From contig JAIXXF010000023.1 of NCBI GenBank assembly GCA_027490925.1, positions 1 to 64,000 on the forward strand: DNA of 64,000 nucleotides, read 5' to 3'. Source of the DNA: Comamonadaceae bacterium. GTDB taxonomy: Bacteria; Pseudomonadota; Gammaproteobacteria; Burkholderiales; Burkholderiaceae_C. Positions 633 to 18,065 of this stretch are shown here, piece after piece; position 1 is the first letter of the stretch; the number at the start of each line of letters is the position of its first letter. The notes below the pieces were generated by a model. It saw nothing but the letters and a program-made list of their open reading frames with translations. It was not told the DNA's origin and ran no database searches. The translations under genes and the position numbers were made by a program.

Positions 633-3323
633 ATGCGTGAAGGACAACCGGCCCTGGTCCGCCGCGAGGCGTACACCGCGCCCGCCTATTGGATCGACAC
701 GGTCGAGCTCGGCTTCGACCTGGACCCAGCCAAGACCCGGGTGCTGAACACCATGACGGTGCGCCGCAACCTCGACACCGAGCCCCAGCCCCTGCGCCTG
801 GATGGCGTGGACCTGAACCTCGCGCGGGTGTTGGTCAACGGCCAAGGCAGCTCGTTCAAGATGGACGGCGCGCAGCTGGTGCTGGACAACCTGCCGTCCG
901 ACGGCAGCCCCTTCACGCTGGAGATCTTCACCACCTGTGCACCCATCAAGAACACCCAGCTGATGGGCCTGTACGTCAGCGGCGACTCGTTCTTCACGCA
1001 GTGCGAGGCCGAAGGCTTCCGCCGCATCACGTACTTCTTGGACCGCCCGGACGTGATGTCCAGCTACAGCGTGACGCTGCGGGCCGACAAGGCCAAGTAC
1101 CCGGTGTTGCTGTCCAACGGCAACCTGGTGGCGCAAGGCGACCTGGACGACGGCCGACACTTCGCCCGCTGGGTGGACCCGCACAAAAAGCCGTGCTACC
1201 TGTTCGCGCTGGTGGCGGGCAAGCTGGTGGCGCGCGAGCAGCGCATCACCTCGCGTTTGGGCAAAGACCATTTGCTGCAGGTTTATGTGCGCCCTGGCGA
1301 TCTCGACAAAACCGAGCACGCGATGAACTCGCTGATGGCCAGCGTCGCTTGGGACGAGGCCCGCTTCGGCCTGAGCCTGGACCTGGAACGCTTCATGATC
1401 GTTGCCGTGGGCGACTTCAACATGGGCGCGATGGAGAACAAGGGTCTCAACATTTTCAACACCAAGTACGTGTTGGCCAACCCCGCCACCGCCACCGATG
1501 TGGACTACGCCAACATCGAAAGCGTGGTTGGGCACGAGTACTTCCACAACTGGACCGGCAACCGCGTCACCTGCCGAGACTGGTTCCAGCTGAGCCTGAA
1601 AGAAGGCCTCACCGTCTTCCGCGACCAGGAATTCAGCCAGGACCTGTCGGGCAGCCCGAGCGCGCGCGCGGTGAAACGGATTGAAGACGTGCGCCTGCTG
1701 CGCACCGCCCAGTTCCCAGAAGACGCAGGCCCCATGGCCCACCCGGTGCGGCCCGACAGCTACCTGGAGATCAATAACTTCTACACCGTCACCATCTACG
1801 AAAAAGGCGCCGAGGTGGTCCGCATGATGCAGACCCTGGTCGGCCAGGCGGGGTTCGGTGCGGGCATGAAGCTGTATTTCGACCGGCACGACGGCCAGGC
1901 CGTGACCTGCGACGACTTTGCCCAGGCCATTGCAGACGCCAACCCAGCGTCTGACCTGGCCCGGCTGCTGCCGCAGTTCAAGCGCTGGTACAGCCAGGCG
2001 GGCACACCACGCCTGCAAGCCAATGGCCAATACGACGCCGTGGCACAGACCTACACGCTCACACTGTCGCAGCACTGTGCACCCACGCCGGGGCAACACG
2101 ACAAAGCGCCCATGGTCATACCCATCACGCTCGGGCTGCTCGGTGCAGACGGGCGCGACCTGCCCCTGCAGTTGGCCGGTGAGGCGTCGCCCGGCGCAGG
2201 CACCCGCACCGTCGTGCTGACCGAAGCCAGCCAGCAGCTCGTGTTTGTGAACGTCGCTCAGGCCCCGGTGCCCTCTTTACTGCGTGACTTCTCGGCCCCC
2301 GTCACGCTGGACATGGACCTCAGCGACGGCAACCTGCTCACCCTGCTGGCGCACGACAGCAACGCCTTCAACCGCTGGGAAGCCGGTCAACGTCTGGTGC
2401 TGCGCCAGGCGCTGAACGCGGTGCAGTCCAACGCCGACCTGGCCCACACCCCGGTGCTGGACGACGCCTGCGTCAACGCCCTGCGCGACGTGCTGCGCCA
2501 CCCCGCGTTGGACGCGGCGTTCAAAGAGTTGGTGCTGACCTTGCCGTCTGAGTCTTACATGGCGGAGCAACTGCCGGTGGTGGACCCGCAGCGCATCCAT
2601 GCGGTGCGCGAGGCCATGCGCAGCCAACTCGCGGTGGCCCTGCAGGCCGACTGGCAATGGGCCTTTGAGGCCCACCAAACGCCCGGCGGTTACTCGCCCG
2701 ACGCGGCCTCCAGCGGCCGCCGCGCACTCGCCAACCTGGCCTTGGCCCACCTGTGCCTGGCCGCGCGCCACAGCGCAGACGCGGTCTGGCCCGGTAAGAC
2801 CTACCAGCGCTTCAAAGACGCCACCAACATGACCGACCGGGTTGGCGCCTTGTCGGCCTTGGTGTCCAGTGGCCATGCGCTGGCGGCCGACGCGCTGCAA
2901 CGCTTTCACCACATGTTCCAGGGGGAGGAACTGGTGATCGACAAATGGTTCGCGTTGCAAGCCGGGGCCATTGATCGCGGCGGCGACGTGCTGCCCCGCG
3001 TGCGCCAGCTCATGAAACACGCCGACTTTTCACTGCGCAACCCCAACCGTGCGCGCAGCCTGGTGTCCACCTTCTGCCAAGCCAACCCCGGCGCGTTCCA
3101 CCGCGTGGATGCCTCGGGCTATGTGTTTTGGAGCGAACGCGTGATCGAGCTGGACGGCATCAACGCCCAGGTGGCCGCCCGGCTGGCCCGCGCGCTGGAC
3201 CGTTGGACCCAGCTCGCCGAGCCCTACCGCAGCGCCGCCCGCGAGGCGATTGCCCGCGTGGCGGCCAAGCCCGACCTCAGCAACGACGTGCGCGAGGTCG
3301 TGACGCGCGCCTTGGCCGATTGA
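633..3323 (+). CDS. pepN: Aminopeptidase N (M1 zinc metallopeptidase)
   Basis: Cytoplasmic zinc exopeptidase that removes N-terminal residues from peptides. The 896-residue length is normal for bacterial PepN. The substrate-binding GAMEN motif lies at residues 265-269 and the zinc site HEYFH begins at about residue 301, followed by the downstream glutamate in LKEGLT. The C-terminal half has the all-helical PepN domain character. The ATG at 633 follows prfB closely. fbp begins ten bases after the stop, so pepN and fbp are probably co-transcribed. No frameshift is seen, and family assignment is secure. Confidence 0.98.
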
Positions 3324-3333
3324 AAGACACCCC

Positions 3334-4359
3334 ATGACCCAAAAAATTTCTTTGTCCCGCTACTTGGTGGAGCAGCAGCGCATCGATGGCCGCATTCCAC
3401 CCCAGCTGCGCCTGCTGCTGGAGGTGGTAGCCCGGGCCTGCAAAAGCATCAGCCATGCGGTCAACAAGGGCGCGCTGGGTGGCGTGCTGGGCACAGCCCA
3501 GACCGAAAACGTGCAAGGCGAGGTGCAAAAAAAGCTGGACATCATCGCCAACGAGGTGCTGATCGAAGCCAACGAATGGGGTGGCCACTTGGCCGCCATG
3601 GCGTCTGAAGAAATGGACGGCATCTACGTGGTGCCCAACCGCTACCCGCAAGGCGAATACCTGTTGCTGTTCGACCCGCTCGACGGCTCCAGCAACATCG
3701 ACGTCAACGTCAGCATTGGCACCATCTTCAGCGTGCTCAAAAAGCCCGACGACACCCCCGGTGTGAGCGAGGCCGACTTCCTGCAGCCAGGCAACAAACA
3801 GGTCGCGGCCGGTTACTGCGTGTACGGCCCGCAAACCACCCTGGTGCTGACCGTGGGCGACGGCGTGGCCATGTTCACCCTGGACCGCGAGCAAGGCTCT
3901 TTTGTGCTGTGCGAAGAAAACGTCCGCATCCCCGAAGACACCAAAGAATTCGCCATCAACATGAGCAACATGCGCCACTGGGACACCCCGGTCAAGCGCT
4001 ACATCGACGAGTGCCTGCAAGGCAAAGAAGGCCCACGCGGCAAAGACTTCAACATGCGCTGGATCGCCAGCATGGTGGCCGATGTCCACCGCATCCTGAC
4101 CCGCGGCGGCGTCTTCATGTACCCCTGGGACAAACGCGAGCCCGACAAGCCAGGCAAACTGCGCCTCATGTATGAAGCCAACCCCATGAGCTGGTTGGTG
4201 GAACAGGCCGGTGGCGCCGCCACCAACGGCCATCAACGCATGCTGGACCTGCCGCCCACCAAGCTGCACGAACGGGTCAGCGTGGTGCTCGGTTCCAAGA
4301 ACGAGGTCGAACGCGTCACCCGCTACCACCTTGAGGCAGACCCGACCAACGCCGCCTGA
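3334..4359 (+). CDS. fbp: Fructose-1,6-bisphosphatase class 1
   Basis: Hydrolyses fructose 1,6-bisphosphate to fructose 6-phosphate in gluconeogenesis and, in autotrophs, the Calvin cycle. The protein has 341 residues, a normal class 1 length. The metal-binding signature [13 protein letters not shown] is near residue 112-124, and the C-terminal substrate region includes [20 protein letters not shown] 3334 lies ten bases after the pepN stop. The tRNA-Thr gene starts 23 bases after its stop. Nothing in this single gene tells whether the host fixes CO2; no other Calvin-cycle genes are in the window. Confidence 0.98.
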
Positions 4360-4382
4360 CTGCTGCTAAAATTGTGGTCATT

Positions 4383-4458
4383 GCCGGTGTAGCTCAGTCG
4401 GTAGAGCAGCTCATTCGTAATGAGAAGGTCGGGTGTTCGATTCATCTCTCCGGCACCA
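4383..4458 (+). tRNA. tRNA-Thr (anticodon CGU), target of an integrated element
   Basis: A complete 76-nt cloverleaf with encoded CCA: acceptor 4383-4389, D arm, anticodon loop TTCGTAA with CGT, and T loop TTCGATT. A G27/A43 non-pair in the anticodon stem is also present in E. coli tRNA-Thr(CGU) as I recall it. The acceptor stem shows an unusual U6/U67 mismatch. A possible -10 (TAAAAT, 4367-4372) precedes it. The 3' 49 bases are duplicated at 8868-8916, showing that an element integrated here and rebuilt the gene. E. coli thrW, the orthologous gene, is a known integration site. Confidence 0.96.
4410..4458 (+). repeat. Left attachment-site repeat (49 bp)
   Basis: This stretch, from the anticodon stem to the CCA end of tRNA-Thr, is identical to 8868-8916. 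Identity stops sharply at both sides (G versus T before, T versus A after), which defines the maximal att core. This copy completes the functional tRNA. Confidence 0.95.
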
Positions 4459-4474
4459 TGTAAACAAAGGAAAG

Positions 4475-4507
4475 CCCGCTATCTTTTTGGTAGCGGGTTT
4501 TTTCTTT
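4475..4507 (+). terminator. Rho-independent terminator after tRNA-Thr, supplied by the element
   Basis: Stem CCCGCTA / TAGCGGG (4475-4481 with 4491-4497) is followed by a T-rich run. It lies just inside the element, 16 bases past the tRNA, so it replaces the host terminator that was displaced to 8927-8963. Confidence 0.85.
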
Positions 4508-4514
4508 TTGCGAA

Positions 4515-4543
4515 GTATGTAAGGGCAGATGTAAGACGATTTT
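4515..4543. promoter_or_regulatory. Left arm-type repeat pair (TATGTAAG, GATGTAAG)
   Basis: Two copies of an 8-mer (4516-4523 and 4528-4535) sit in a 26-base block that recurs at 8720-8745 with one mismatch. Location near both ends of the element suggests integrase arm or excisionase binding sites. This is inference from placement and repetition only. Confidence 0.5.
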
Positions 4544-4569
4544 TCGCGTCGCGGCCCTCTGCCGGTCAA

Positions 4570-4593
4570 AAAGAAAACCCGCACATGGCGGGC
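4570..4593 (-). terminator. Probable minus-strand terminator at the end of the element's gene string
   Basis: Read on the minus strand, stem CCCGC / GCGGG with loop CATGT is followed by TTTTCTTTTT. It lies about 210 bases past the last minus-strand gene (stop 4804) and would keep the element's transcript from running antisense into tRNA-Thr. The interval 4594-4803 shows no gene. Confidence 0.65.
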
Positions 4594-4803
4594 TTTACGG
4601 TCTCCGAAAAATCTCGGGGTTAGGACAAGGCAGGCAACACTTGCGCGTATTGCTGTGAAAACGGCTGTAAGGGCCAAGCCACCGGCTCGACACGGCCCGC
4701 CCCCTCATCCGGTTTTCCGGTCCACTTCCCGGCACTGTACCGTCTTGGCACCCGGATTAGGCATAGCCTCAGCCTTTGGGGCTACGGCGTCGGCGGCACT
4801 AGG

Positions 4804-5022
4804 TCACAGCAGATTGGCAGGCAGCTTCCAGCGGTCACGCTTGCCCCACAGGCGGGGCGGTTGCCAGTGGCTTTGCACCAAGGCAGAAAGCCCCGTTATC
4901 ACCAAGCGGTCTATCAATGCTTGGGTACTGTTTTCAGGGTAGTGCGACTGTGCCGCTTTCAGCGCGGCGACAGCGGCAGGGCATGGCAGGTAGTCAACCC
5001 TTACGCGGTCAGTCTTAGGCAT
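4804..5022 (-). CDS. Hypothetical 72-aa protein of the element
   Basis: No family recognised. The ATG at 5022 is preferred over upstream starts because AAGGGA stands about nine bases before it and the residues ahead of it look like leader. The predicted protein begins MPKTDRVRVDYLPCP, has an Ala-rich helix-like middle and a basic, Trp-containing C terminus (WQPPRLWGKRDRWK). It follows the relaxase gene by 49 bases in the same orientation, so it may be a mobilization accessory protein, but nothing in the sequence proves that. It could also be non-coding. Confidence 0.45.
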   Translation of the reverse strand: MPKTDRVRVDYLPCPAAVAALKAAQSHYPENSTQALIDRLVITGLSALVQSHWQPPRLWGKRDRWKLPANLL

Positions 5023-5071
5023 CGTTGGCTTCCCTTTGGTTACTGGCTGTGAATGGTCGCGGGCTTTCGAG

Positions 5072-6112
5072 TTAGTCCCATGCACTCAGGTCGTCGGCGT
5101 ATTCATCGCGAACCCTCGTGATTCCGTCGTCACCCACTCGAATGACCGGGGCGGTGTCTTGCGGTGGGGCTCTGCGCGTAAGCTTTGCCATACCTCGTTG
5201 CTGTGCGGCCCGGGCAATGCTGAGGCGGTCAGGTTGTATGTGCGGTGCGTCGGCGGTCTCGTTGGTAGTGGCAGGTTGGTGGAACCCTACACAGGATAGG
5301 GATTGGTCTTTTGACTGCCTTAGCTCAAACCCTTTAGGGCTTGCATCAAACCCTTTAGGGTTCGGGGTCGGTTGCTCAGTTGTTGCGTCGCCTTTAGGTC
5401 GAATGCTGTTTACGTCAATTTTCAAGGCATGCATGGCGTCGGTCGGGTCTCGCCTTATTGCCCTTTCAAAGACCGGGCGCAGCGCCTCATTCGATTTCAG
5501 GGGATTTGCATCCCATTCGCGTAAAACCGCATCGACCGCCCATGTTTTGTGGACTCCACGTAACTTGGCAGCCTCACGTTTCAAGCCAGCAGGTCCGGCC
5601 ACACACTGGAAATGGGACTCACGCAGTTGCTTGAAATTACCTTTAGCTATCGGCGCACTGCCAACGTATCGACCATCTTTCACCGGCAGCAGCAGGATAT
5701 GCACGTGTGGCGTCGCCTCGTCACGATGAATTACGGCGCTGAGTACGGGTAGCTCCGACTCTTTCTCAAGCCATGCCAAACACGCAGCGAAGTAGCTCTC
5801 ATGGTCGATAGGTGCGTCGTTGGGTAGGCTAAAAACCGCCTCTATGGCTTGGCAATGGTTGCGTTTCAGCTTTGAGGTGTCAACGTTGGCAAGTAACGAT
5901 TTTGCTAACGCTGTGACCCCTTCAGCGGATTCAGGCCCGGCCATGATGCGGTTGTCATTGACACGGAATGGGTCAATGTGACTGTTTGCCCCCAGCTCTG
6001 CCTGAATCTCTCTCAGGTTATGGCGGGCGGCATTCTTCAAGGTGCTTTGTTTCCGGGCTAGGGTCGACTGGCTTATGCTTTTCACAGAAAACATGGCGAT
6101 GCATTCAGCCAT
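5072..6112 (-). CDS. MobV-family relaxase (plasmid recombination/mobilization enzyme, Pre/Mob)
   Basis: Relaxases nick the transferred strand at oriT and start conjugative mobilization. The MobV hallmark is visible: H129-R-D131-E132-A-T-P-H136-V-H138, the HxDExxPHxH motif that binds metal. Start 6112 is chosen because AAGGGGG lies about seven bases upstream; an in-frame start at 6142 is possible. The protein is 346 residues, with the conserved domain in the first 200 and a poorly conserved tail containing a near-duplicate NPKGFDASPKGFE. The start overlaps the upstream gene by eight bases. No oriT could be identified with confidence. Confidence 0.85.
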   Translation of the reverse strand: MAECIAMFSVKSISQSTLARKQSTLKNAARHNLREIQAELGANSHIDPFRVNDNRIMAGPESAEGVTALAKSLLANVDTSKLKRNHCQAIEAVFSLPNDAPIDHESYFAACLAWLEKESELPVLSAVIHRDEATPHVHILLLPVKDGRYVGSAPIAKGNFKQLRESHFQCVAGPAGLKREAAKLRGVHKTWAVDAVLREWDANPLKSNEALRPVFERAIRRDPTDAMHALKIDVNSIRPKGDATTEQPTPNPKGFDASPKGFELRQSKDQSLSCVGFHQPATTNETADAPHIQPDRLSIARAAQQRGMAKLTRRAPPQDTAPVIRVGDDGITRVRDEYADDLSAWD

Positions 6113-6461
6113 TGGTACCCCCTTGGTTCGGGTCGTCGCCACCGCGCTTTCTGGTGGCTTGCCAGCGGTACACCTTGTGGCGGTCAGACTCGGTCAAGAA
6201 ATACACACCAGGGCGGCACACGAAACCGTCACAGTCAACAAAGTTAATGCGCTTACATGGCACCTCTAGCCCCCGTCTGCGAAGCTCGGCTACCAGCTCA
6301 GGCGCATTGCTGCACCCAGCGGCACTATCCAAGCTCTCGCGGGGCATTGGGCGGGTTAGCAGGGAGGCGATAGCCCGAAGGTGTCGCGGGTTGTCAGTTC
6401 CGATAAACTTTGCGCTGTTCGGGGCGCTCGGGTTCTCTTTTGGGGGCTCGGGCGTTTTCAT
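6105..6461 (-). CDS. Winged-helix-like protein of the element, 118 aa
   Basis: Function not established. ATG 6461 is favoured over an upstream start because a GGGGGAC run precedes it and the extra residues are low-quality. The region around residues 22-60 (NPRHLRAIASLL ... AELRRRGLEVPC) resembles the helix-turn-helix modules of small phage and genomic-island proteins that read as 'arrange, split into helices, basic wing'. The C terminus (CRPGVYFLTESDRHKV) fits the same proteins as I recall them. It overlaps the relaxase start by eight bases, so the pair is probably translated together and it may act in mobilization or its control. Confidence 0.6.
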   Translation of the reverse strand: MKTPEPPKENPSAPNSAKFIGTDNPRHLRAIASLLTRPMPRESLDSAAGCSNAPELVAELRRRGLEVPCKRINFVDCDGFVCRPGVYFLTESDRHKVYRWQATRKRGGDDPNQGGTNG

Positions 6462-6516
6462 TTCCCAGTCCCCCGACCGCGTATGCGCAGCAGCAGATAG
6501 ACCAGGGCGGCCAGCA

Positions 6517-6726
6517 TTAGGCCACCCCCAACACACGGCGAAGCTCAGATACCGGCCATGCAAGGCGGCCGTTGATACGGATTGGACGGATTGGACCGTC
6601 GTCGCGACAGGACCAAAGGCGCAGTGTTTGCTGTGCGCGACTCAGATGCCTAGCGGCTTCCTGGGTGGGAATTGCTGCACGTGTTTCCAGCGACAGCGGT
6701 GTAAGTTGAATGGTCTTTTGGGCCAT
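6517..6726 (-). CDS. Small helix-turn-helix protein, candidate excisionase (AlpA/Xis-like)
   Basis: A 69-residue basic protein whose central part IPTQEAARHLSRAQQTLRLW reads as a MerR/Xis-type helix-turn-helix, followed by a short wing (PIRINGRLAWPVSEL). Such proteins beside tyrosine integrases often act as recombination directionality factors or activate integrase genes. Its 3' end lies within open sequence ahead of the 118-aa gene (start 6461). A role as the directionality factor of this element is inference from size, fold and context; a pure transcription regulator is equally possible. Confidence 0.65.
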   Translation of the reverse strand: MAQKTIQLTPLSLETRAAIPTQEAARHLSRAQQTLRLWSCRDDGPIRPIRINGRLAWPVSELRRVLGVA

Positions 6727-6816
6727 GTCGTAAACCTATTGGTTCGTTGAACAAGGCTCCTGATTATTCGCATATCTTTGTGAGTTAATAGACCCCCACC
6801 AATTAATTCCCAGGAA

Positions 6817-7293
6817 TCAATCGGAGGGCTTGATTAAATCAAATGCTCTAGCGTTCCTAACTACCTCTACCCAACGCTCGTCTGCTCCGTAGTAGTGCTT
6901 TGAAATTGCATCAATTTTTTTATTTTTCGTAAGCTCAACCCATCGCTTTTGCCGAATTACGCTACGGATAGCTGCAGCCACCGACGTAGCGGGTTTTCCA
7001 GAGATGTAGTCGTCCACATCGATGCGCAGTTCTGCCTTGTCCACATCGCTCCATTCCGTGGGGCGGCCTGGGGGGTTTGCTAACTTGAAACCCGGTACGT
7101 GGGTACACGCCAGCTTGAAAGCCAGTGCAAACCAATCACCCTCAGTGACCCCGTGCGCCTCTGCCAGTAAGGGCAATTTAGCCATTCGCTCTTTCACTAG
7201 TGATTCCGCGACGGCGCTTAGTTGCTCGTCTGTTAGTAATAAGCCAATAGGCTTTCGTGATATCGGCTTACTCAGCGGCCCGGTATATTTCAT
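6817..7293 (-). CDS. Uncharacterised 158-aa protein of the element
   Basis: No family recognised. Start 7293 has a good GGGAG ribosome site. The protein is hydrophilic with a GRPTEWS turn near residue 76, an acidic stretch (ELRIDVDDYISG), then a basic helix-rich C terminus (RSVIRQKRWVELTKNKKIDAISKHYYG) that could bind DNA. It stands alone between the integrase and the Xis-like gene, where small elements often carry a regulator, replication or defence gene. None of these can be claimed from sequence. Its composition matches the rest of the element rather than the host. Confidence 0.6.
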   Translation of the reverse strand: MKYTGPLSKPISRKPIGLLLTDEQLSAVAESLVKERMAKLPLLAEAHGVTEGDWFALAFKLACTHVPGFKLANPPGRPTEWSDVDKAELRIDVDDYISGKPATSVAAAIRSVIRQKRWVELTKNKKIDAISKHYYGADERWVEVVRNARAFDLIKPSD

Positions 7294-7386
7294 AACACTC
7301 CCTTAGCACATCCCTGAATAAAAGCCCCAACACGCCAACGGGGAAACCCGCTATGCGGCAGATAAATCTAGCTGGGGCTAACTTAT

Positions 7387-8688
7387 TTAAGCCACCGCAC
7401 GCAGCTTGCCCGGCTCCGCCTTTGGGTCGACCTTCACCCCAGCCAGCTTCAAGATGAATGCCTCTATCTGTTCCAGGTAGGGGCGTAGCGCGTCAACACT
7501 GCGCGGCCGATACCCCTCAGCGGTTGCACTCGGCTTGTGGCCCATAACCTGGGCAATAGCCCCGGCAGGGGCTCCGGCGGCTTCCCCGAGTAACGAGAAT
7601 GACCGGCGCAAACCGTGAATAGTCAGACGGTCTATTCCGGCACTTTTCAAAGCCTGGGAATGGCTAGCGCGGGCGTCAGTCAGTCGTCCGGCTTTGCCGG
7701 TACTTGCAAAAACAAAGGTTCCGGTCCTAGGCAACGTCGCCAATAGCTGTGCGAGGTAAGGGCTCAGGGGTATCACGCGGGTGTCGTCCACCTTATCGGC
7801 CAAGGTCAGTTTGCGCCATTGAAAGTCCACGGCATCCCATTTCAGGGCGGCGAGTTCTTCACGGCGGGCACCAGTCACCAACAGGGCGCGCAGGTAAACA
7901 GACGCGGTGCGGTTATGTAGCTGTTCAACGGCGGCCCACCAACCCGGCACCTGGGCGGATTCAAGGGCATCCGTTCGGCGGCTCAGGGTGGGCAAGCTTT
8001 CAACGATGGCAGCGGCGCGGCCCGCGTCTCTATCGGTTAGATTACGATAGCTAGGCTGTGCACTGCACCATCGCAGGAAACCACGAAACATCATCAAAGC
8101 CCGGGCGGCTTGGTGCTTACTCCGCATGGCCTCAGAGTCGAACCAAGCTTTTAGCGTGTCCTCATTCACATCGCTTAACGGTCGCGCTAGCAATGGGAAA
8201 AGCGGGCCCGGCCTCGTCAGTCCCTTCCCTCGTTTCTTTTCTTCACCACCTGGGGCGGCCATTGCTTTGAGGTCGGCGAGATAACCCGGCTTCCATGCGT
8301 CGCGGCGCTTTGGTTTGCCATGTTGCAGATACAACGGCCATACGTCACCGACTGTGAGGGCTTGGGCGCGCTCGTTGGCTCTGCGGGCAGCAGAAACGGC
8401 CAAGGCGTCGCGTTTCAGGTCTCTAGGGTCTTTGCCCTCGTCAATCTGCCTTTGTAGCTCTCGGGCTTTTTCCTGGGCTTTGGGGATGCTCCAAACATCG
8501 GGGCTACCGATTGTCAATCTGAGGTCGCGGCCTTGGTAGACCCCCTGAAACACATAGGCGGGCTTACCGGTCGGCGTGACCCTCAGCCCCAGTCCCGGCG
8601 CGGTCGCGTCCCACATGAATGCTTGCGCCTTTTCAGGCGGGCATCTAAACCCAGTTATGCGGCTAACAGTGAATGCCACCTTTGCCAT
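7387..8688 (-). CDS. Tyrosine-type site-specific integrase, P4/DUF4102 class
   Basis: Catalyses integration into and excision from the tRNA-Thr attachment site. The 433-residue length and the N-terminal DUF4102-type domain (residues 1-95, including PGLGLRVTPTGKPAYVF) are usual for P4-like integrases that target tRNA genes. Catalytic residues are visible: R275 in TGARREEL, H358-G-L-R361, H384 in GHKP, and the nucleophile Y393. The gene reads away from the right end; its start is 180 bases from the right att repeat, and three GATGTAAG motifs lie in between, where P-arm sites would be expected. Confidence 0.95.
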   Translation of the reverse strand: MAKVAFTVSRITGFRCPPEKAQAFMWDATAPGLGLRVTPTGKPAYVFQGVYQGRDLRLTIGSPDVWSIPKAQEKARELQRQIDEGKDPRDLKRDALAVSAARRANERAQALTVGDVWPLYLQHGKPKRRDAWKPGYLADLKAMAAPGGEEKKRGKGLTRPGPLFPLLARPLSDVNEDTLKAWFDSEAMRSKHQAARALMMFRGFLRWCSAQPSYRNLTDRDAGRAAAIVESLPTLSRRTDALESAQVPGWWAAVEQLHNRTASVYLRALLVTGARREELAALKWDAVDFQWRKLTLADKVDDTRVIPLSPYLAQLLATLPRTGTFVFASTGKAGRLTDARASHSQALKSAGIDRLTIHGLRRSFSLLGEAAGAPAGAIAQVMGHKPSATAEGYRPRSVDALRPYLEQIEAFILKLAGVKVDPKAEPGKLRAVA

Positions 8689-8702
8689 GTTGCCCCCTAG
8701 CA

Positions 8703-8745
8703 GTCTTACATCCTGGCCGATGTAAGGGCGGATGTAAGACGATTT
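8703..8745. promoter_or_regulatory. Right arm-type repeats (one inverted, two direct GATGTAAG)
   Basis: CTTACATC at 8705-8712 is an inverted copy; GATGTAAG occurs at 8719-8726 and 8731-8738. Positions 8720-8745 repeat the left-end block 4517-4543 with one mismatch. The block lies in the integrase promoter region, so binding here could couple recombination and integrase expression. Confidence 0.5.
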
Positions 8746-8867
8746 CCCGAATACGGCTCGATGTGAATCAACAGCTAAACTGTTTTTCCGTACAGAAAAA
8801 GCTCGTAAGTTGTTGATTTACATAGATTGTATCAACAGGGGTCAACACAACGAAATTGGGGTTATCT

Positions 8868-8916
8868 CTCATTCGTAATGAGAAGGTCGGGTGTTCGATT
8901 CATCTCTCCGGCACCA
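8868..8916 (+). repeat. Right attachment-site repeat: displaced 3' half of tRNA-Thr
   Basis: Perfect 49-bp copy of 4410-4458 without the 5' half of the tRNA, hence not a tRNA gene. It is the original chromosomal 3' end of tRNA-Thr, still followed by its terminator. Confidence 0.95.
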
Positions 8917-8926
8917 ATAAAGACAA

Positions 8927-8963
8927 GGGTTCGTTGCTATGAAAAACGCAGCGAACCCTTTTT
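8927..8963 (+). terminator. Original tRNA-Thr terminator, now orphaned
   Basis: Eleven-base stem GGGTTCGTTGC / GCAGCGAACCC (8927-8937 with 8948-8958, one G-T pair) followed by TTTTTCTTT. It sits 10 bases past the displaced tRNA 3' end, as expected for the ancestral terminator. Confidence 0.85.
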
Positions 8964-9393
8964 CTTTGGTGGTCATACCTGCGCTATGCCGCCGTCTGCA
9001 CACTCATTCTGGTGTTGACGCTGTCAATCCATGGAGCTCACAGCCGTCAGGGCGACTTGGTCAAGGCGCGAATATCGATCCGAATGGCAGACCGGGGTAG
9101 GGCCACGGATACGTCGGTGAGGACCATGGCCAACACTCCCTTGGGCCAAGGATTTATCTGGTCTTCTTCAGCAGCTTTGACTACCTGCAACAGGCTCAGA
9201 ACCAGTTCCAGCAGCGCTTACCCGGACATTCGGGTATGTCACGGGATCCAGCAATGGACGAGCCGAACCGGCAGGTGTTTCTCGATAAGCCCTCGGTGCG
9301 AGGGATCGGCGTTGGCTTTACGCGCTGGGTAAGCTGTTTAGTGAGAGCGCGGACTTGCCGGGCTGTCGGCTGGTTGGGGCCATCATTGCCACC
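8964..9393. other. Gene-poor scar sequence right of the element
   Basis: Reading frames here are short and match no family I recognise on either strand. The stretch runs from the old tRNA terminator into the truncated zeta-like gene and probably consists of decayed accessory DNA. Confidence 0.5.
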
Positions 9394-9594
9394 ATGGATT
9401 TCCTGCAACTCGATCAGGTGAACGAAGCGATACGGCAGGGCGGACACCATATTCCTGAGGACGTGATTCGACGCCGGTTCATTGCCGGTTTGTACAACTT
9501 TGAGCATGCGTACAAAGGCGCTGCCGATGATTGGGCCGAATTTGACAACGTGGGCGAAGAGCCAATACTTTTGCAGTGGAGTGAGAACACTTGA
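9394..9594 (+). pseudogene. C-terminal fragment of a zeta-like toxin (P-loop kinase)
   Basis: The 66 residues from ATG 9394 match the end of chromosomal zeta-toxin-like P-loop kinases: FLQLDQVNEAIRQGG, then HHIPEDVIRRRFIAGLYNF, then a short tail with DNVGEEP. The Walker A half and catalytic centre, which should precede this, are absent and could not be found in other frames upstream, so the gene is truncated. Known zeta proteins phosphorylate UDP-N-acetylglucosamine precursors; this fragment cannot. The stop overlaps the next start (TTGA), preserving an original operon junction. Confidence 0.7.
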
Positions 9595-9791
9595 ACGCTC
9601 AAGACCTGTCCAAAGCCAAAAACCCGGATGTTCGCGCTGCATTGGGTGCTTTGCGCCGCGCGGCCCAAGCGGCACGCAAGACGGTGATACAGACCAACAC
9701 CCATTTGATCGTGATGAAAGAAGGCCGCTTGCAGCGCATTGCGGCCTCGGAATTGGTGCAGCAAGAGGTCGCCAAAGCAAGAACGACATGA
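9591..9791 (+). CDS. Small 66-aa protein, former partner of the zeta-like toxin
   Basis: TTG start at 9591 overlaps the toxin stop; the TGA stop overlaps the next ATG (ATGA), so three frames were once translated as a coupled set. The protein has a basic, Ala/Arg-rich helix (RAALGALRRAAQAARKTVIQ) and an Asn-Thr-His-Leu-Ile-Val strand. Proteins of this kind follow zeta-like kinases in several proteobacteria as I recall, and may be antitoxin or DNA-binding partners. Its function is not established. It appears intact, but with a dead toxin it may be relict. Confidence 0.55.
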   Translation: MNAQDLSKAKNPDVRAALGALRRAAQAARKTVIQTNTHLIVMKEGRLQRIAASELVQQEVAKARTT

Positions 9792-10039
9792 CCGAGCAAA
9801 ACCAAAAGAAGCTGGGCGCCACCCTGTGGGCCCTTGCCGACCAACTGCGCGGCGCTATGGACGCGGACGATTTCCGCGACTACAGCGGCGACCAGTTGAG
9901 GAAGATCACCAGCCTCATCGAAGCGGGCGCGATCCGGCCTGTGATCGACAAGGTGTTTGCATTTGAGAAAACCAATGACGCCCTCGCCTACGTCGAATCG
10001 GGTCGGGCAAAGGGCAAGGTGGTCATCAGGGTGAAATGA
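9788..10039 (+). pseudogene. Chimeric ORF: start of HsdM fused to end of a quinone oxidoreductase
   Basis: The first 32 residues (MTEQNQKKLGATLWALADQL continuing to DADDFRDY) match the start of type I restriction methyltransferase HsdM. The remaining 51 residues, from SGDQLRKITSLIEAG to the end (YVESGRAKGKVVIRVK), match the C terminus of zinc-free NADPH:quinone oxidoreductases of the MDR family. The join is in frame near base 9884. Neither part can be catalytic alone. The most likely origin is a deletion that removed hsdM, hsdS, hsdR and the start of an oxidoreductase gene. The 83-aa ORF may still be translated. Confidence 0.75.
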
Positions 10040-10073
10040 CGGCACTTTGCGCAGCGTGATTTAACCTAAGCGC

Positions 10074-10883
10074 ATGACACAGAGCCTGATTGCGGTTGAT
10101 TTGCCGTTGGTCTCCCACCAAACGACCCGGAGAAAGTCGCGCGGCCTATTTCTGGCTGCGATGTTTGTCTTTTTCTTTGGCGGCGAGCAGGCGTTTGCGC
10201 AAGATCGGTTCGCACCGCCACAGGGAATGTCCTGTCGAGAAAAGACGCCGGTGGTTCTCATTCACGGCACGTTTGCGAATTTCAATCGCACATTCGCCAC
10301 GCTTGGACCTCTATTGATGTCCCGTGGCCATTGCGTGTTCGGGATCAACTACGGGGCGGTGAAGCAACTGCCCGGCGTGTACGCGACTGGCGACATGGTC
10401 CGATCGGCGGAACAGATTGCAACTTTTGTACGGGAAATCCTCGCCGAAACAGGCCACGAAAAAGTGTCAATGGTTGGCCACTCTCAAGGCGGAACGCTCG
10501 CTTTTTACGTCGCCAATCGCCTGGGACTTGCAGACAGGATCGAGCGACTGGTGGCGATTGCGCCGAGCATTCGGGGCACCCAGGTGGCGAATTGGGCCCC
10601 CACAAGCGGTCCTTGTGCCGCCTGCATTCAGCAGAGCAGCCAGTCAGATTTCATACGCGCCCTGTCCGATGGGGGCTTCAACCCACACAGGCTGAAAACA
10701 CTCGTGATGGCCACTGAAAACGACGCTGTGGTCGTTCCATGGCGACAGCAGTTGATCGATGAGCCGCTGGTCGATAACGTGATCTTGCAGCGAGAAATCG
10801 CGAACGTGCGCGCCACCCATTCCGGCATCATGCGCAACGCTGAGGCGATGCGGTATGTCGCAGACTGGCTTAACAAACAGTGA
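10074..10883 (+). CDS. Exported lipase/esterase, alpha/beta hydrolase
   Basis: Predicted secreted triacylglycerol lipase or esterase of 269 residues. A long basic N region followed by a hydrophobic core (residues 24-37) and AFA cleavage-like site near 42 suggest a Sec signal. The catalytic triad is visible as S137 in GHSQGG, D217 in ATENDA, and H249 in RATHSG; the oxyanion strand is PVVLIHG. No good ribosome site precedes ATG 10074, so a start further inside is possible. It is unrelated in sequence context to the lipase-foldase pair at 30.4 kb and has no foldase gene beside it. Substrate unknown. Confidence 0.8.
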   Translation: MTQSLIAVDLPLVSHQTTRRKSRGLFLAAMFVFFFGGEQAFAQDRFAPPQGMSCREKTPVVLIHGTFANFNRTFATLGPLLMSRGHCVFGINYGAVKQLPGVYATGDMVRSAEQIATFVREILAETGHEKVSMVGHSQGGTLAFYVANRLGLADRIERLVAIAPSIRGTQVANWAPTSGPCAACIQQSSQSDFIRALSDGGFNPHRLKTLVMATENDAVVVPWRQQLIDEPLVDNVILQREIANVRATHSGIMRNAEAMRYVADWLNKQ

Positions 10884-10979
10884 AAACATCGCTCACGATG
10901 CGACGGTGATCTGACACTGCATCGGGTGATTTCCCATAAGCGAGGTAGCCCAATGAGGAGATAGGCGCAAGGTAACCGG

Positions 10980-11320
10980 GCCAACCCGGTGGTGCTGAAG
11001 CTGACTTTTTTGGGGCAGCGCAGGATGCACCACTACGACCAAGGAAGCCAACACGCCAATGAGCTCTTCCAAGGCTTGCGGAAAGAACAGGGCATCACCT
11101 GCAGCATGAGCCGTGCGGGAGATGTCTGGCACAACTCGGCGGTGGAGAGCTTCTTCAGTTCGCTGAAAACAGAAAGAGCTGGAAGAAAGGTCTACCGGAC
11201 GCGAGCAGAGGCGAGGTCTGATGTGTTCGATCACATCGAGCGCTTCTACAACCCTACCCGGTGACATTCGACGCTGGGTTGATCAACCTGACCCAGTTTG
11301 GGGAAGCTATTAAAGCCTAG
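10980..11320 (+). pseudogene. IS3-family transposase OrfB, C-terminal remnant
   Basis: Residues read from about 11020 match the end of an IS3-group OrfB integrase-fold transposase: HHYDQGSQHANELF, GITCSMSRAGDVWHNSAVES, FFSSLKTER, RFYNP. The final acidic catalytic residue (the E of AVESFF) is present, but the upstream two thirds of the gene are gone. A frameshift follows RFYNP; the remaining tail continues in another frame to TAG at 11318. No terminal inverted repeats could be matched. Confidence 0.85.
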
Positions 11321-11440
11321 GGCTGTGACTACGGAACCGGGGCAACCCACTCAGACAAACATTTCGTCGGCTGTATCTCTGCTCGTTGAATACTGCGCAA
11401 TTCTTGGCAGGCTTAGAGGGACGTGCTAGCCCTGTAAAGC

Positions 11441-12133
11441 TCAATGCACAAACCGATATCCGATTCCTGACTCTGTCAATAGATGGCGAGGCATGGACGA
11501 ATTGCCTTCCACCTTTTTACGTAGATTAGCCATGTGTACCCTGACATAGTGAGTGTCCTCGAGATGCCCTGGACCCCAGATCAGCTTGAGTAACTGCTGA
11601 TGGGTGACCACACGGTCGGGTTGCGACGCCAGGTGTGTGAGCAACTTGTACTCGATGGGTGTGAGATGCAGCAGTGTGCCCCCGCGTTCCACGGTACGCC
11701 TAGTCAGGTCGATCCGAATGTCACCAAAGGCGATCTCAGGTTCACCCCCCTGTGTGGGCAACCGGTACCTCCGCAACTGGGCCCGTACCCTAGCAGTCAA
11801 CTCACCAGCACCAAAGGGCTTGACGAGATAGTCGTCTGCGCCGGCATCGAGCGCGGCAATTTTGTCGGTCTCTTGACTGCGTGCCGACAACACGATCACG
11901 GGTGACGCCGACCAGTGGCGCAGCGAGCGAATCAGCTCAATGCCATCGCCATCTGGCAATCCCAAATCCAGTACCAACAGGTCGGGGCGTCTGGTTCCGG
12001 CTTCGATCAGTCCGCGCTGAACGCTGTCCGCCTCGTGCACAGCGTGGCCTTCTGCCTGCAGCGTCATACGCACGAAGCGCCGGATGTCGGCTTCGTCCTC
12101 GACGACCAGGATGTGATGGGGCTTGTCGGTCAT
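11441..12133 (-). CDS. kdpE: Response regulator of potassium uptake, OmpR family
   Basis: DNA-binding regulator phosphorylated by KdpD and activating the kdp operon when potassium is low or osmolarity rises. It has 230 residues: a receiver domain (1-120) with acidic pocket E12-D13 and phospho-acceptor D56, conserved K near 107 in VKPFG, and a C-terminal winged helix (130-228) ending GIGYRF. Its ATG overlaps the kdpD stop (ATGA), so the two are translationally coupled. It is the last gene of the minus-strand kdp block; an IS remnant lies 120 bases beyond its stop. Confidence 0.97.
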   Translation of the reverse strand: MTDKPHHILVVEDEADIRRFVRMTLQAEGHAVHEADSVQRGLIEAGTRRPDLLVLDLGLPDGDGIELIRSLRHWSASPVIVLSARSQETDKIAALDAGADDYLVKPFGAGELTARVRAQLRRYRLPTQGGEPEIAFGDIRIDLTRRTVERGGTLLHLTPIEYKLLTHLASQPDRVVTHQQLLKLIWGPGHLEDTHYVRVHMANLRKKVEGNSSMPRHLLTESGIGYRFVH

Positions 12134-14850
12134 GAATCCACGGCTTCCTCCGGCAGGGCATGGGTACCGTCGTCCTCAGGTGGCGCACCTCGCGCCAGCG
12201 TCATAACAAAATGCGAACCGACGACGCGACCCCCCGCCTGCCGATTGTGTCCGCTGATGCGGCCTCCGTGCGCCGTCATGATGGCGCGGCAAATGGCCAA
12301 CCCCAAGCCCACACCGGGCGTGGCGCTCTCTGGCGTGCCCCGCTCAAATTTCTCAAACACTCGCTCCTCGCGGCCTGCTGGCAAGCCCGGCCCCTGATCA
12401 TCGACCCATAGCAGTACCTCATTGCTGTGGGTCTGCGCACCAATGACGATACTGGTACCGGCGGGTGTGTACTTAGCGGCGTTTTCCAGCAAGTTGACCA
12501 GTACCCGTTCGATCAGTGAGGCGTCCAGATGCAGCAGCGGCAGGTCGTCTGGCAAGCTCACCTCGATGTCGCGACCTTTCAGCACAGACGCGCAGGCCAC
12601 GATGGCGCTGCCCACCACCTCTTCCAGCGGTAACCATTCGCGCCTCAGCGGCACCGCACCCGACTCCAGCCTTGCCATGTCCAGAAGGTTGTTGACGAGC
12701 GCGCTCATGCGTTGTGCCGAAGTCTTGATGGCGTTGGCCACTTCTTGTTGCGCAGCACTTAAGCCTGGGGTGGTCATCCCCAGAGCTTCCGACAGTCCCA
12801 CCAGTGAGGCCAGTGGCGTACGCAGATCGTGCGAGACGGCTGACAGCAGCGAGTTGCGCAGGCGTTCGGACTCGATCTGCACCGTGCTTTTCTGTGCCAC
12901 ATCAATGTAGTGGATACGCTCGAGTGAAATCGCTAGCAGCGACGCACAGGTCTCTAGCAGTTGCATGGGCTCGGGGCCAGGTGGCAGGGTCTCGCCGACT
13001 TCTAGGACCAGTACGCCCCGCACCCGCATGGGTGCCTTCAGTGGCAGCACCAGACAGGGGCTGGCCGGCAGCGTACCGGTGCCGCGCCCGGCAGGCTCCG
13101 CCTTGTCGAAGGCCCACTGGGCCACACCCATGTCCACCGTGGCATCGCCACCGTGCACCGCCACGAGGCGGTTGTGGTCATCGCTGGCCAGCAGGGTTGA
13201 CCGGGCGCGGAACTCAGCGCGCAGAAAACGTGCGCCGATCTCAGCCACCTGCTCTGCCAGCAGCGCAGCGGAGAGGTCGCGCGACATATCGTAGAGACTG
13301 CGCACCCGGTGCTCCCGCTGGGTGGCGGCCTCCGCCTGCACCTTAAGCCCCGCAGTGAGCTGACCTACCACCAGTGCCACCAGCAGCATCACCGCAAAAG
13401 TGACGAGGTATTGCACATCGCTCACCGCAAATGAGAAGCGCGGTGGCACGAAGAAGAAGTCGAACAGACCCACACCGAGGAAGGCCGCCAGCACGGCAGG
13501 CCCGCGCCCGAACAACAGCCCCACGCCCACCACCACCAGCAGGAACAGCATCACGATGTTGCTGAGTTCGAGCACACCAACCAATGGCGTGGTCAACAAG
13601 GCGGTGGCTCCACATGCCAGCGCAGCCGCTCCATAGCCGCGCCACGCCACGGCGTCGGTGGCGACTGTCTCTTGCCGCCGCTGTGCCGCGCGTGTGTGCA
13701 GCAACACGGGCAGTGCAACCTGCAGTACATCGAGATCCTGCGCCTCGCGCGTCAGGCGGTCCGCCAGAGACCGTTGCCAGGGCCAGCGCGCCTGATCGTG
13801 TCGCCCCAGCACCAGGCGCACTAGGTTGTACTCGCGAGCGTAGCGAACCAGGGCGGCCACGGGGTCGGGTGCTGTGAGCGTGGCGGTGGTGGCGCCCAGT
13901 TCCTGCGCCAGCTTGAGTACGCGCTGCGCCTGTTCGCGGTGGGCGGCCCGCTCGCGCAACAGCGCCGGTGTCTCCACAAAGACCGCGTGCCAAGGCGCAT
14001 CCAGCTGGGCGGCCAGTCGGGCGCACGAGCGCACCACCTTCTCACCTGCATCCCCCGCACCTATACAGGCCAACAGGGAGTCGCGGTTGGGCCACACCGG
14101 CTTGACGGCCACTTGGCGTCGGTAGGCCCGCATCTCGTCATCCACCCGGTCGGCAGTACGGCGCAGCGCCAGCTCGCGCAAGGCCAGCAGGTTACCCTTG
14201 CGAAAGAAGTGGGCAGCGGCGCGTTCGGCCTGCTGGGGAAGGTAGACCTTGCCTGCTTTGAGGCGTTCCAGCAGTTCGTCGGGTGGAAGGTCTACCACCA
14301 CCACCTCGTCGGCAGCGTCGAAAAAACGGTCGGGCACAGTTTCCCAGACCCTGATGCCGGTGATGCCGCTGACCACATCGTTGAGGCTCTCAAGATGCTG
14401 CACGTTCATCGTGGTCCAGACATCGATGCCAGCGTCCAGCAGTTCCTCAGCGTCTTGCCAGCGTTTGGGATGGCGCGAGCCCGGTGAGTTGCTGTGCGCC
14501 AGCTCGTCAAGCACCACCAGAGCCTCTGCGTGGGCGGTGCCGAAGGCCAGCGCGGCATCAAGGTCGAATTCATGCAGCGTGCGTTCTTTGTACGGCACCT
14601 GTCGCAGCGCCAAGCGGGGCAGGTCGCGCGCCATGGCTTCGGTATCGGAGCGCCCATGCGTCTCCACCACACCGATAACCAGTGGCGTGCCCTCTGCCTG
14701 CGCCGCGCGTGCGGCGGCGAGCATGGCGTAGGTCTTTCCGACACCGGCATTGGCGCCAAAAAAAATCTTGAGCCGGCCACGCCCGGCCTGTGCCTCCTGC
14801 TGCATCACCCGCGCCAGCAGCGCATCGGGGTCGGGTCGGTCGTCGAACAT
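12130..14850 (-). CDS. kdpD: Sensor histidine kinase of potassium uptake
   Basis: Membrane sensor kinase/phosphatase of 906 residues. The start at 14850 (MFDDRPDPDALL) fits the family; residues upstream of it in frame belong to a corA remnant read out of frame. Domains in order: KdpD N-terminal ATP-binding domain with Walker A GANAGVGKT at 32-40, USP-like domain to about 370, four transmembrane helices near 400-500 (DUF4118), a GAF-like segment, HisKA with H674 in VSHDLRTP, and an HATPase domain with DDQGPGLP. No good ribosome site precedes the start, so coupling with upstream translation is possible. Confidence 0.96.
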   Translation of the reverse strand: MFDDRPDPDALLARVMQQEAQAGRGRLKIFFGANAGVGKTYAMLAAARAAQAEGTPLVIGVVETHGRSDTEAMARDLPRLALRQVPYKERTLHEFDLDAALAFGTAHAEALVVLDELAHSNSPGSRHPKRWQDAEELLDAGIDVWTTMNVQHLESLNDVVSGITGIRVWETVPDRFFDAADEVVVVDLPPDELLERLKAGKVYLPQQAERAAAHFFRKGNLLALRELALRRTADRVDDEMRAYRRQVAVKPVWPNRDSLLACIGAGDAGEKVVRSCARLAAQLDAPWHAVFVETPALLRERAAHREQAQRVLKLAQELGATTATLTAPDPVAALVRYAREYNLVRLVLGRHDQARWPWQRSLADRLTREAQDLDVLQVALPVLLHTRAAQRRQETVATDAVAWRGYGAAALACGATALLTTPLVGVLELSNIVMLFLLVVVGVGLLFGRGPAVLAAFLGVGLFDFFFVPPRFSFAVSDVQYLVTFAVMLLVALVVGQLTAGLKVQAEAATQREHRVRSLYDMSRDLSAALLAEQVAEIGARFLRAEFRARSTLLASDDHNRLVAVHGGDATVDMGVAQWAFDKAEPAGRGTGTLPASPCLVLPLKAPMRVRGVLVLEVGETLPPGPEPMQLLETCASLLAISLERIHYIDVAQKSTVQIESERLRNSLLSAVSHDLRTPLASLVGLSEALGMTTPGLSAAQQEVANAIKTSAQRMSALVNNLLDMARLESGAVPLRREWLPLEEVVGSAIVACASVLKGRDIEVSLPDDLPLLHLDASLIERVLVNLLENAAKYTPAGTSIVIGAQTHSNEVLLWVDDQGPGLPAGREERVFEKFERGTPESATPGVGLGLAICRAIMTAHGGRISGHNRQAGGRVVGSHFVMTLARGAPPEDDGTHALPEEAVDS

Positions 14851-14855
14851 GGGGT

Positions 14856-15250
14856 TCAGAGCCGGCGGGTACGTCTGGAGCGCCAGTACAAGCCGACCGC
14901 CGCGCTGGCAATCGTGATCAGAGCGGCTGGGTAACCGTAGAGCCGCTTGAGCTCGGGCGAGTACTCGAAGTTCATGCCCCTGATTGTCACCAGCGCGGTG
15001 GACACACCGAAAGAATTCATACTTAGAAAAACATGGTGTCGCCGCACTCTTCAATATTGGGGCGCTGGAGGCCGTGGCTGGCATCCTCGGCCGCTAGATT
15101 GTTCATGCTGAATTCTCGCTGCATCTGGCGCAGGCCATACTCGGTCCCATCGCGCAGCACCATCCACGCGAAGCACGCGTGTTCGCCGACTTATTGGGCA
15201 ATGTCAGCGACCTCATGGCCGTCTCGGTAGACCACACAGTTGATGAGCAT
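14856..15250 (-). pseudogene. corA: Decayed corA (Mg/Co channel) inside the kdp locus
   Basis: Two separated pieces of CorA are readable. From ATG 15250 the frame gives MLINCVVYRDGHEVADIAQ, hits TAA, then continues in frame as VGEHACFAWMVLRDG through SHGLQRPNIEECGDTM, the CorA N-terminal domain. After a stop, a different frame gives VTIRGMNFEYSPELKRLYGY with the diagnostic GMN signature and last helix, ending at 14856. About 200 central residues are missing, so a stop codon, a frameshift and a large internal deletion all disable it. It lies five bases upstream of kdpD. Confidence 0.85.
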
Positions 15251-15271
15251 GTCAGTCACCTCCCCTCAACA

Positions 15272-15400
15272 TCAATGCCGCCGGCGGGCAATTTCTTGAA
15301 GCCGGTCGTGACCTCTATCGCGGGACAACAACCAAGCTGCCAGCAACCACGGCAGCACCACGACCGACAGCCCAAGAACAATACCCCAGCGGTGGGTCAT
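15272..15400 (-). CDS. Putative 42-aa single-span membrane protein after kdpC
   Basis: The frame begins with ATG two bases after the kdpC stop and encodes MTHRWGIVLGLSVVVLPWLL followed by AAWLLSRDRGHDRLQEIARRRH. It has one hydrophobic helix (residues 6-24) and a basic, probably cytoplasmic tail. The tight spacing to kdpC, uninterrupted frame and clear topology argue that it is a gene of the kdp operon. I recognise no family. It could be a KdpF-like stabilising peptide or part of a lost larger gene; translation is not proven. Confidence 0.5.
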   Translation of the reverse strand: MTHRWGIVLGLSVVVLPWLLAAWLLSRDRGHDRLQEIARRRH

Positions 15401-15402
15401 GA

Positions 15403-15981: not shown

Positions 15982-15997
15982 GAGGAACTCCTTGTAA

Positions 15998-18064: not shown

Positions 18065-18065
18065 G

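Follow-up and report, generated by a model that had tools for sequence, protein, structure and literature searches.

A very small, probable MOBV-like integrative mobilizable element at a tRNA-Thr gene, with a candidate origin of transfer at the 3' end of its relaxase gene

Described elements and the locus compared

Two described elements from Bacteroides are among those closest to the subject of this study, a candidate integrative mobilizable element (IME) at a tRNA-Thr gene in 64,000 nt of DNA from a Comamonadaceae bacterium (assembly GCA_027490925.1, contig JAIXXF010000023.1, positions 1-64,000 of the forward strand; this whole stretch is called the window). NBU1, which belongs to the MOBV class and to another phylum than the window element, uses a tRNA-Leu site and is larger than the window element. 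In Tn5520 of Bacteroides fragilis, the origin of transfer (oriT) lies upstream of the mob gene. In phiX174 and P2, the replication origin lies inside the initiator gene, gene A; compared by description, the likeness is that of an HUH initiator gene holding its own target, and the difference is that this target serves replication, not conjugation. According to passages of a 2017 review (PMC5704250), NBU1 combines a tyrosine integrase, a recombination directionality factor, a relaxase and an oriT, which the window element parallels with its Xis-like protein and oriT candidate. The same passages describe Tn5520, which a title calls the smallest mobilizable transposon, as carrying one integrase and one mobilization gene. 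It thus shares a MobV relaxase, a single tyrosine integrase and a minimal gene set with the window element, but it inserts with low specificity and a preference for AT-rich DNA, not at a tRNA gene. MobV IMEs are listed there from Bacteroidetes, Firmicutes and Actinobacteria, and no canonical IME was then listed from Proteobacteria.

Among MOBV1 systems, IMESag-rpsI and pMV158 have an HUH relaxase, like the window element, and the hairpin-forming oriT and G/T nick that are predicted for it, as far as the consulted parts of the sources cover them. MobM cleaves a G/T bond, which must be single-stranded. In both systems the oriT is upstream of the relaxase gene, and that of pMV158 overlaps the relaxase promoters, whereas the window candidate lies in the 3' end of the gene; MOBV1 hosts are Gram-positive. 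IMEs of Mesorhizobium, reported in 2021 (parts of PMC8627217), are proteobacterial, encode their own relaxase and often sit at tRNA genes, but they have MOBF or MOBQ relaxases, are larger (5,814 bp upward) and belong to Alphaproteobacteria. Parts of PMC5863519, PMC5090054, PMC4256276 and PMC11389934 also entered the comparison. A 2024 plasmid survey (PMC11541004) excluded oriTs lying wholly within a relaxase gene, so the arrangement was already known but filtered out. In the titles and abstracts of the open-access literature, which leaves most subscription journals outside, we found no description of this MOBV-like IME family under MobV in Burkholderiales, IMEs in Comamonadaceae or Betaproteobacteria, or oriT within or downstream of a relaxase gene.

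The element and the oriT candidate in its relaxase gene

We regard the locus as very probably a complete, very small IME of a MOBV-like clade, with an oriT behind, or overprinted by, the relaxase gene. Of the traits that define an IME, it has an integrase and att sites of its own and a relaxase of its own, and for the oriT it has a candidate. The features that carry this reading are as follows.

4383-4458, plus strand: tRNA-Thr(CGU) gene, the target of integration, made whole again by the att copy that the element brings (ARAGORN, Rfam)
4410-4458, plus strand: att direct repeat, tRNA-side copy (49-bp perfect repeat)
8868-8916, plus strand: att direct repeat, distal copy (49-bp perfect repeat)
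4517-4542, plus strand: putative integrase arm-type site, ATGTAAG...ATGTAAG (26-bp repeat, 25/26 identical to 8720-8745)
8720-8745, plus strand: putative integrase arm-type site at the other end (pair of 4517-4542)
7387-8688, minus strand: tyrosine integrase P0001 with arm-binding domain (Pfam, NCBIfam and PHROG profile searches)
5072-6112, minus strand: MOBV-like (MobM-fold) relaxase P0002 (Pfam Mob_Pre, structural matches)
5285-5301, minus strand: oriT candidate, hairpin CCCTA-TCCTGTG-TAGGG (comparative sequence evidence)
5330-5339, no strand assigned: palindrome, read on the minus strand as CCCTAAAGGG and in relatives as CCCTATAGGG, a putative relaxosome-binding repeat (repeat search)
5351-5360, no strand assigned: second palindrome, CCCTAAAGGG, 21 bp from the first (repeat search)

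The tRNA-Thr gene was the only tRNA gene that ARAGORN found in the window, and an Rfam scan of 3000-12000 agreed. A first-pass annotation had named this gene as the attachment site, with perfect 49-bp repeats of its 3' half, and both copies proved exact, spaced 4458 bp apart. With up to three mismatches allowed, the last 32 bases of the repeat occur in two copies only in the window and in none of 100 shuffles. Six genes lie between the copies, all on the minus strand and all open. The integrase, likewise proposed at first pass, exceeded the Pfam cut-offs for Phage_integrase (1.1e-14) and Arm-DNA-bind_3 (1.4e-10). The two copies of the 26-bp repeat, each with two ATGTAAG words, are set in from the att copies by 58 bp on the tRNA side and by 122 bp at the distal end. 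Comparable end repeats with words of their own were found in sister elements: TTGCCTACAGATTGCCTACA in three Acidovorax loci (L105, L106, L107) and an uncultured beta proteobacterium (L115), and CGTAGCCACATCGTAGCCAC in L064. The end repeats therefore look like integrase arm sites, which fits the same arrangement in the sister elements, and with the catalytic and N-terminal arm-binding domains they would make P0001 a P4-like integrase. Overall the first-pass interpretation was supported; the arm-type repeats and the oriT candidate were absent from it, and the latter is the element's most unusual feature.

The relaxase P0002 matched Pfam Mob_Pre above the cut-off (2.3e-13). Its catalytic motif H129-x-D131-E132-xxP-H136-x-H138 is intact, and H129, D131, E132, H136 and H138 are invariant in a 14-row relaxase alignment. 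Its predicted model had eight PDB matches at E <= 0.001, seven of which are MobM, its best structural counterpart; the MobM chains 4lvi-4lvm and 5n2q matched with TM-scores of 0.70-0.75 by target length, at 14-18% identity in the structural alignments.

Relaxases of this family share two C-terminal peptides, PIGF or PKGF, and LSCVG. At the DNA level, these peptides are CCTATAGGG palindromes and the hairpin CCCTA-TCCTGTG-TAGGG. In the window the oriT candidate is inside the relaxase gene at its 3' end, and the two palindromes precede the hairpin. The TG/TA at the end of the loop is similar to the G/T bond that MobM cuts, and from this we predict the nick between 5290 and 5289. The relaxase open reading frame (ORF) reads through its own oriT candidate, translating it into a predicted disordered linker before a short C-terminal helix. 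In the model, nearly all of the stretch that the candidate encodes (about residues 252-277) has a predicted local distance difference test (pLDDT) score below 50 (segments 250-256 and 258-292); the MobM-like domain is on one side of it and a helix at 296-312 on the other.

We examined the site across relatives. Within the family, 23 of 299 genomes had relaxase homologues at E <= 0.001; within the order, an alignment query with a stricter limit found them in 9 of 399. Both counts include the window's own genome. In total we compared 47 relaxase loci, 27 chosen by protein and 20 by DNA pattern; L119, without a relaxase ORF, and L150, without a relaxase, stand outside this count. At each locus, the relaxase gene plus 2.2 kb downstream was searched for the motif. 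The hairpin was found with at most two mismatches in 16 of the 27 protein-selected loci, the window included, and with three in L044. In L061 and L072 the stems are altered on both sides and are still complementary. Weak relaxase matches (L016-L023, L028) were also scanned and gave no hairpin match; the N-terminal relaxase fragment L077 was outside the scan.

Several observations indicate that the DNA itself is conserved. The codons CTA-TCC-TGT-GTA-GGG, or a CTA-TGC-TCT or CTA-TCT-TGT variant, recur in homologues only 29-54% identical to P0002. The motif is in another reading frame in L030 and L122, and it follows the stop codon in L037, L063, L066, L070, L073 and L076, in L063 even beyond an inserted transposase gene. 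We shuffled synonymous codons in ten protein-selected genes whose ORF contains the motif (at most two mismatches); in each gene, only 0-5 of 1000 shuffles came as close to the motif as the real sequence. Compared with the genes' own usage, the codon choice had a median p of 7e-5 over 27 genes, of which the DNA pattern had supplied 19.

The stem also covaries. In 19 protein-selected rows, 88.8% of the cells pair, and five of the eight pairs change on both sides. The covariation score was 0.281 against a shuffled mean of 0.115 and was reached by none of 500 shuffles, a figure that is no probability because the rows are related by descent. Sliding the stem partner lowered every pairing measure, and TGTAG, which spans the loop end and the start of the right arm, was invariant in all 19 rows. 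This alignment left out L072 (two extra loop bases), L074 (a chance-like match) and all pattern-chosen loci.

A composite pattern of palindrome and hairpin, built from the relatives, found 27 stretches in a collection of 84,980 genomes. The window does not fit this pattern, since its palindromes read CCCTAAAGGG. Twenty-six of the stretches lie in the ORF of a P0002-family relaxase, and the remaining one is a relaxase remnant cut by IS66. All are in records titled as betaproteobacterial taxa, and we take their genera to be betaproteobacterial. Six coincide with profile loci (L030, L035, L036, L039, L062, L067) and 21 are new; two share one genome. The reversed pattern was absent from the 21 genomes checked, and the pattern had no match in viral contigs. 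Because pattern-found loci carry the motif by construction, they support its association with the relaxase only, not its conservation. Taken together, the reading frames, codon choice, covariation, exclusivity and predicted disorder indicate that the DNA is conserved, not the peptide alone, and the comparative support for an oriT candidate in the window element is strong. We also considered an oriT-only satellite in Duganella (L087/L119) and rejected it: an IS66 transposase gene ends just before the site, which lies in a 3' remnant of a relaxase gene.

The position of the motif relative to the ORF differs among the loci. Short relaxases of about 245-270 codons have it 29-123 bases past the stop (L037, L066, L070, L073 and, in altered form, L072), and in most other motif-bearing loci the ORF runs through it. 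We consider it probable that a betaproteobacterial clade of MOBV-like IMEs put its oriT behind the relaxase gene and that in most members seen the ORF runs through. The simplest account places the oriT downstream at the outset and has the ORF extended over it later. The reverse route, truncation of a longer relaxase ORF, may also have been taken: in G114, G326, G412 and G531 the profile match goes on beyond in-frame stops.

Relatives, target sites and the other genes

The first-pass annotation had made its case depend on homologues occurring together, and they do. An integrase lies upstream on the same strand in 35 of the 47 loci, a Xis homologue in 19 and a P0004 homologue in 15, and 17 loci sit at a tRNA gene, bracketed by direct repeats 25 bp or longer. 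The respective numbers are 17, 7, 6 and 8 for the 27 protein-chosen loci and 18, 12, 9 and 9 for the 20 pattern-chosen loci. The integrase queries included integrases from nine of the 47 loci. No upstream integrase was detected in 12 loci, five of which have less than 1 kb of upstream sequence. Relatives that retain these genes keep the order integrase, variable gene, xis, P0004 and mobV, with variable genes in the gap between integrase and xis and in the region after mobV. Of the six proteins that had been taken as a unit, only the integrase, Xis, P0004 and the relaxase form a recurrent core, and Xis and P0004 are present only in the minorities given above.

A search for gene order conserved between tRNA-Thr repeats had also been proposed; tRNA-Thr proved to be only one of many targets. 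The 17 bracketed elements use genes of ten anticodons: Thr(cgt), Met(cat), Val(gac), Val(cac), Phe(gaa), Lys(ttt), Lys(ctt), His(gtg), Arg(tct) and Arg(ccg). Their sizes run from 4458 bp, that of the window element, to 11,336 bp; L145 (4546 bp, tRNA-Phe) is the second smallest. The window element had been proposed as a near-minimal IME; as the review passages cited above describe it, Tn5520 is a precedent for a minimal element.

Some relatives have other notable neighbours. In Duganella, L119 has at 3562-5388 a type I-C retron reverse transcriptase with a Toprim domain, beside an IS66-cut relaxase remnant and the oriT candidate. In Rhodocyclaceae, L124 has at 11061-18365 type I-G CRISPR-Cas genes downstream of a family relaxase, encoding a protein matching Cas3g/Cas8g, Cas7g and a GSU0054-family protein; a translated GLVAPAGATTLQ repeat there suggests a CRISPR array. 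In neither case are the two ends of the element defined at a tRNA gene. L061 (5104-19103) has a tRNA-Thr(cgt) gene, a 75-bp repeat 10.8 kb downstream and a family relaxase beyond it, apparently tandem elements at one tRNA. Transposase genes interrupt or abut family relaxase genes in L063 (15059-16402, DDE_Tnp_1 type), L064 (9042-9998, IS1595) and L119 (3-1643, IS66).

The remaining features of the window element are the following.

6817-7293, minus strand: P0003, no assigned function, in the variable slot between integrase and xis (ORF; no convincing family match)
6517-6726, minus strand: AlpA/Xis-like excisionase P0005 (PHROG 66; conserved position)
6105-6461, minus strand: P0004, small winged-helix-like protein overlapping the relaxase gene start (ORF, relatives, predicted model)
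4804-5022, minus strand: P0006, small protein (likely start inside a 93-aa ORF, 4804-5085)
4469-4503, plus strand: intrinsic-terminator-like stem directly after the tRNA, inside the element, with a presumed function (terminator scan)

The Xis-like protein had been recognised at first pass. Its profile support is weak (HTH_17 E 0.023, below the cut-off; PHROG 66 excisionase 4.4e-4), and it is the recurrence of a homologue upstream of the relaxase that speaks for it. Profile searches gave no convincing family for P0003, P0004 or P0006. P0003 has a 30% identical stretch in L079, and an 83% identical copy of P0006 adjoins the relaxase in the Hydrogenophaga locus L084. The predicted model of P0004 (pLDDT 79) matched many DNA-binding regulators among others, none at E <= 0.001. 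The same searches recognised no replication gene among the six proteins, as had been claimed, and no mating-pore or coupling-protein family. As a count, terminator-like sites showed no excess (six found, 6.5 expected from shuffles). By eye, a second stem follows the distal att copy (about 8926-8966), as if the element swaps the terminator of the tRNA gene.

The gene before the tRNA is a fructose-1,6-bisphosphatase gene. The G+C content is 56.2% in the element, 64.7% in the left flank and 56.7% in the right flank to 12000. The description of the element as AT-richer therefore holds against the left flank but not against the right, and composition is no marker of the right edge, since that flank is as low in G+C as the element. 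The AT-rich right flank (8917-12000) has gene fragments, including a zinc-dehydrogenase tail at about 9760-10036 (76-88% identical stretches in 15 genomes of the family), an alpha/beta hydrolase ORF at 10074-10883 and an rve-type transposase fragment at 10989-11264. It is possibly the remains of an older island at the same tRNA.

An empty tRNA-Thr site in close relatives had been expected as well. The tRNA-Thr(cgt) gene is unoccupied in the two other genomes of the genus that were compared (2/2) and has the same preceding gene; within about 8 kb, these genomes showed neither a second att copy nor an integrase, and no relaxase match was convincing, a marginal one in L058 (E 0.006) being taken as chance. 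Because their downstream DNA is unlike the window's right flank, the target counts as free in these genomes, but they do not amount to an exact two-sided empty site. The right flank itself matched 18 of 298 genomes of the family (own included), in 15 of them only over about 100 bases of the dehydrogenase-like fragment, far from the att copy. A joined-flank query from the Acidovorax element L106, run against 47 genomes of its genus (own included), gave no one-piece match to both flanks among the matches listed; the longest one-piece matches listed covered 131-455 of 455, about 40 bases past att into the other flank. In G716 both L106 flanks are about 6 kb apart, and no family relaxase was found between them.

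A plasmid origin was considered and rejected. Relaxase matches came up in 230 of 72,556 plasmid records; their identity stayed below 60% throughout, and no match reached 80% coverage. The window oriT stretch had no match in the plasmid records, and the motif was absent, at up to four mismatches, from the stretches of plasmids L151 and L152.

Alternative readings, transfer and meaning

Certain findings weigh against an IME of this kind with an oriT at this site. The assignment of P0002 to MobV with an intact HxDExxPHxH motif stood as to the Mob_Pre domain, the motif and the predicted MobM fold; P0002 did not reach the NCBIfam MobV cut-off (1.5e-14; 54.5 bits against 100), and we therefore file it as MOBV-like. 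The motif is absent from seven of the 27 protein-selected loci (L043, L045, L047, L048, L065, L075 and L074, where a four-mismatch match was taken as chance), and L033 retains the loop and right arm only, so the motif marks a subclade. On one covariation measure, further pair types, 17 of 500 shuffles did as well as the real alignment. The window hairpin, taken as 35 nt, is weak in folding (-3 kcal/mol, z -0.38), and the 111-nt window stretch, with z -1.69, is unremarkable, while the values for L062, L061 and L105 are -3.5 to -2.9. We identified no helper element, and an exact two-sided empty site was found neither in the genus mates nor with the Acidovorax flank query nor with the window's right flank.

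Other functions have to be considered for the conserved site. The hairpin might be an operator or terminator, bound by the relaxase or P0004, that controls mobV or downstream genes. In this direction point a terminator-like call for 5285-5301 on the plus strand and the predicted resemblance of P0004 to DNA-binding regulators. The site lies near the 3' end of the gene or after it, away from the promoter, the T tract after the hairpin is not conserved by eye, and the invariance of TGTAG also speaks against such a role, which we consider quite unlikely as the sole explanation. A MOBV oriT may also autoregulate, judging from the parts of the literature consulted: in pMV158, where the oriT overlaps the mobM promoters, one site has both roles, so an operator would be compatible with an oriT. 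It is still less plausible that the repeats PIGF and LSCVG are kept for the peptide, for example as a coupling-protein signal, with DNA conservation as a by-product. In its favour, loci with the motif inside the ORF mostly share one frame, and P259, I260, G261, L272, V275 and G276 are at least 90% conserved in alignment A3, whose rows except the window were chosen by DNA pattern. A peptide signal would not, however, account for the other frame in two loci and the position outside the ORF in six, for the synonymous shuffles and codon choice, or for a covarying stem in a stretch predicted to be disordered.

We also asked whether the element is a decayed remnant or a fixed genomic island, immobile today. 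The gene fragments of the AT-rich right flank and the insertion sequences that cut some sister relaxase genes would fit such decay. The window copy, by contrast, has six open genes, identical 49-bp att copies and arm repeats that differ at one of 26 positions, and we hold decay to be unlikely here.

If the locus is a mobilizable element with an oriT at this site, transfer might proceed as follows. The integrase and Xis would excise the element as a circle, leaving an intact tRNA gene. The relaxase would bind the CCCTAAAGGG palindromes and the hairpin, and it would nick the minus strand, which codes for mobV, after CCCTATCCTGTG. Relaxase and nicked strand would then pass through the coupling protein and mating pore of a co-resident plasmid or integrative and conjugative element. 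P0006 and the tRNA-side end would lead the way into the recipient, and the bulk of the relaxase gene would come at the rear; the recipient would rejoin the strand, and the element would integrate at its tRNA-Thr gene.

The family adds MOBV-like IMEs to those of Proteobacteria, smaller and at many tRNA genes, with a retron and a type I-G CRISPR-Cas locus beside two of the relaxase genes. The oriT candidate offers a short DNA signature for finding such elements genome-wide, and if it is an oriT, pipelines that drop oriTs wholly inside relaxase genes would miss them. The nick would then cut the relaxase gene on the transferred strand, so that full-length relaxase could be made from the incoming DNA only after rejoining. 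The origin would also be physically tied to its own enzyme, and a copy of the relaxase gene would bring its oriT along.

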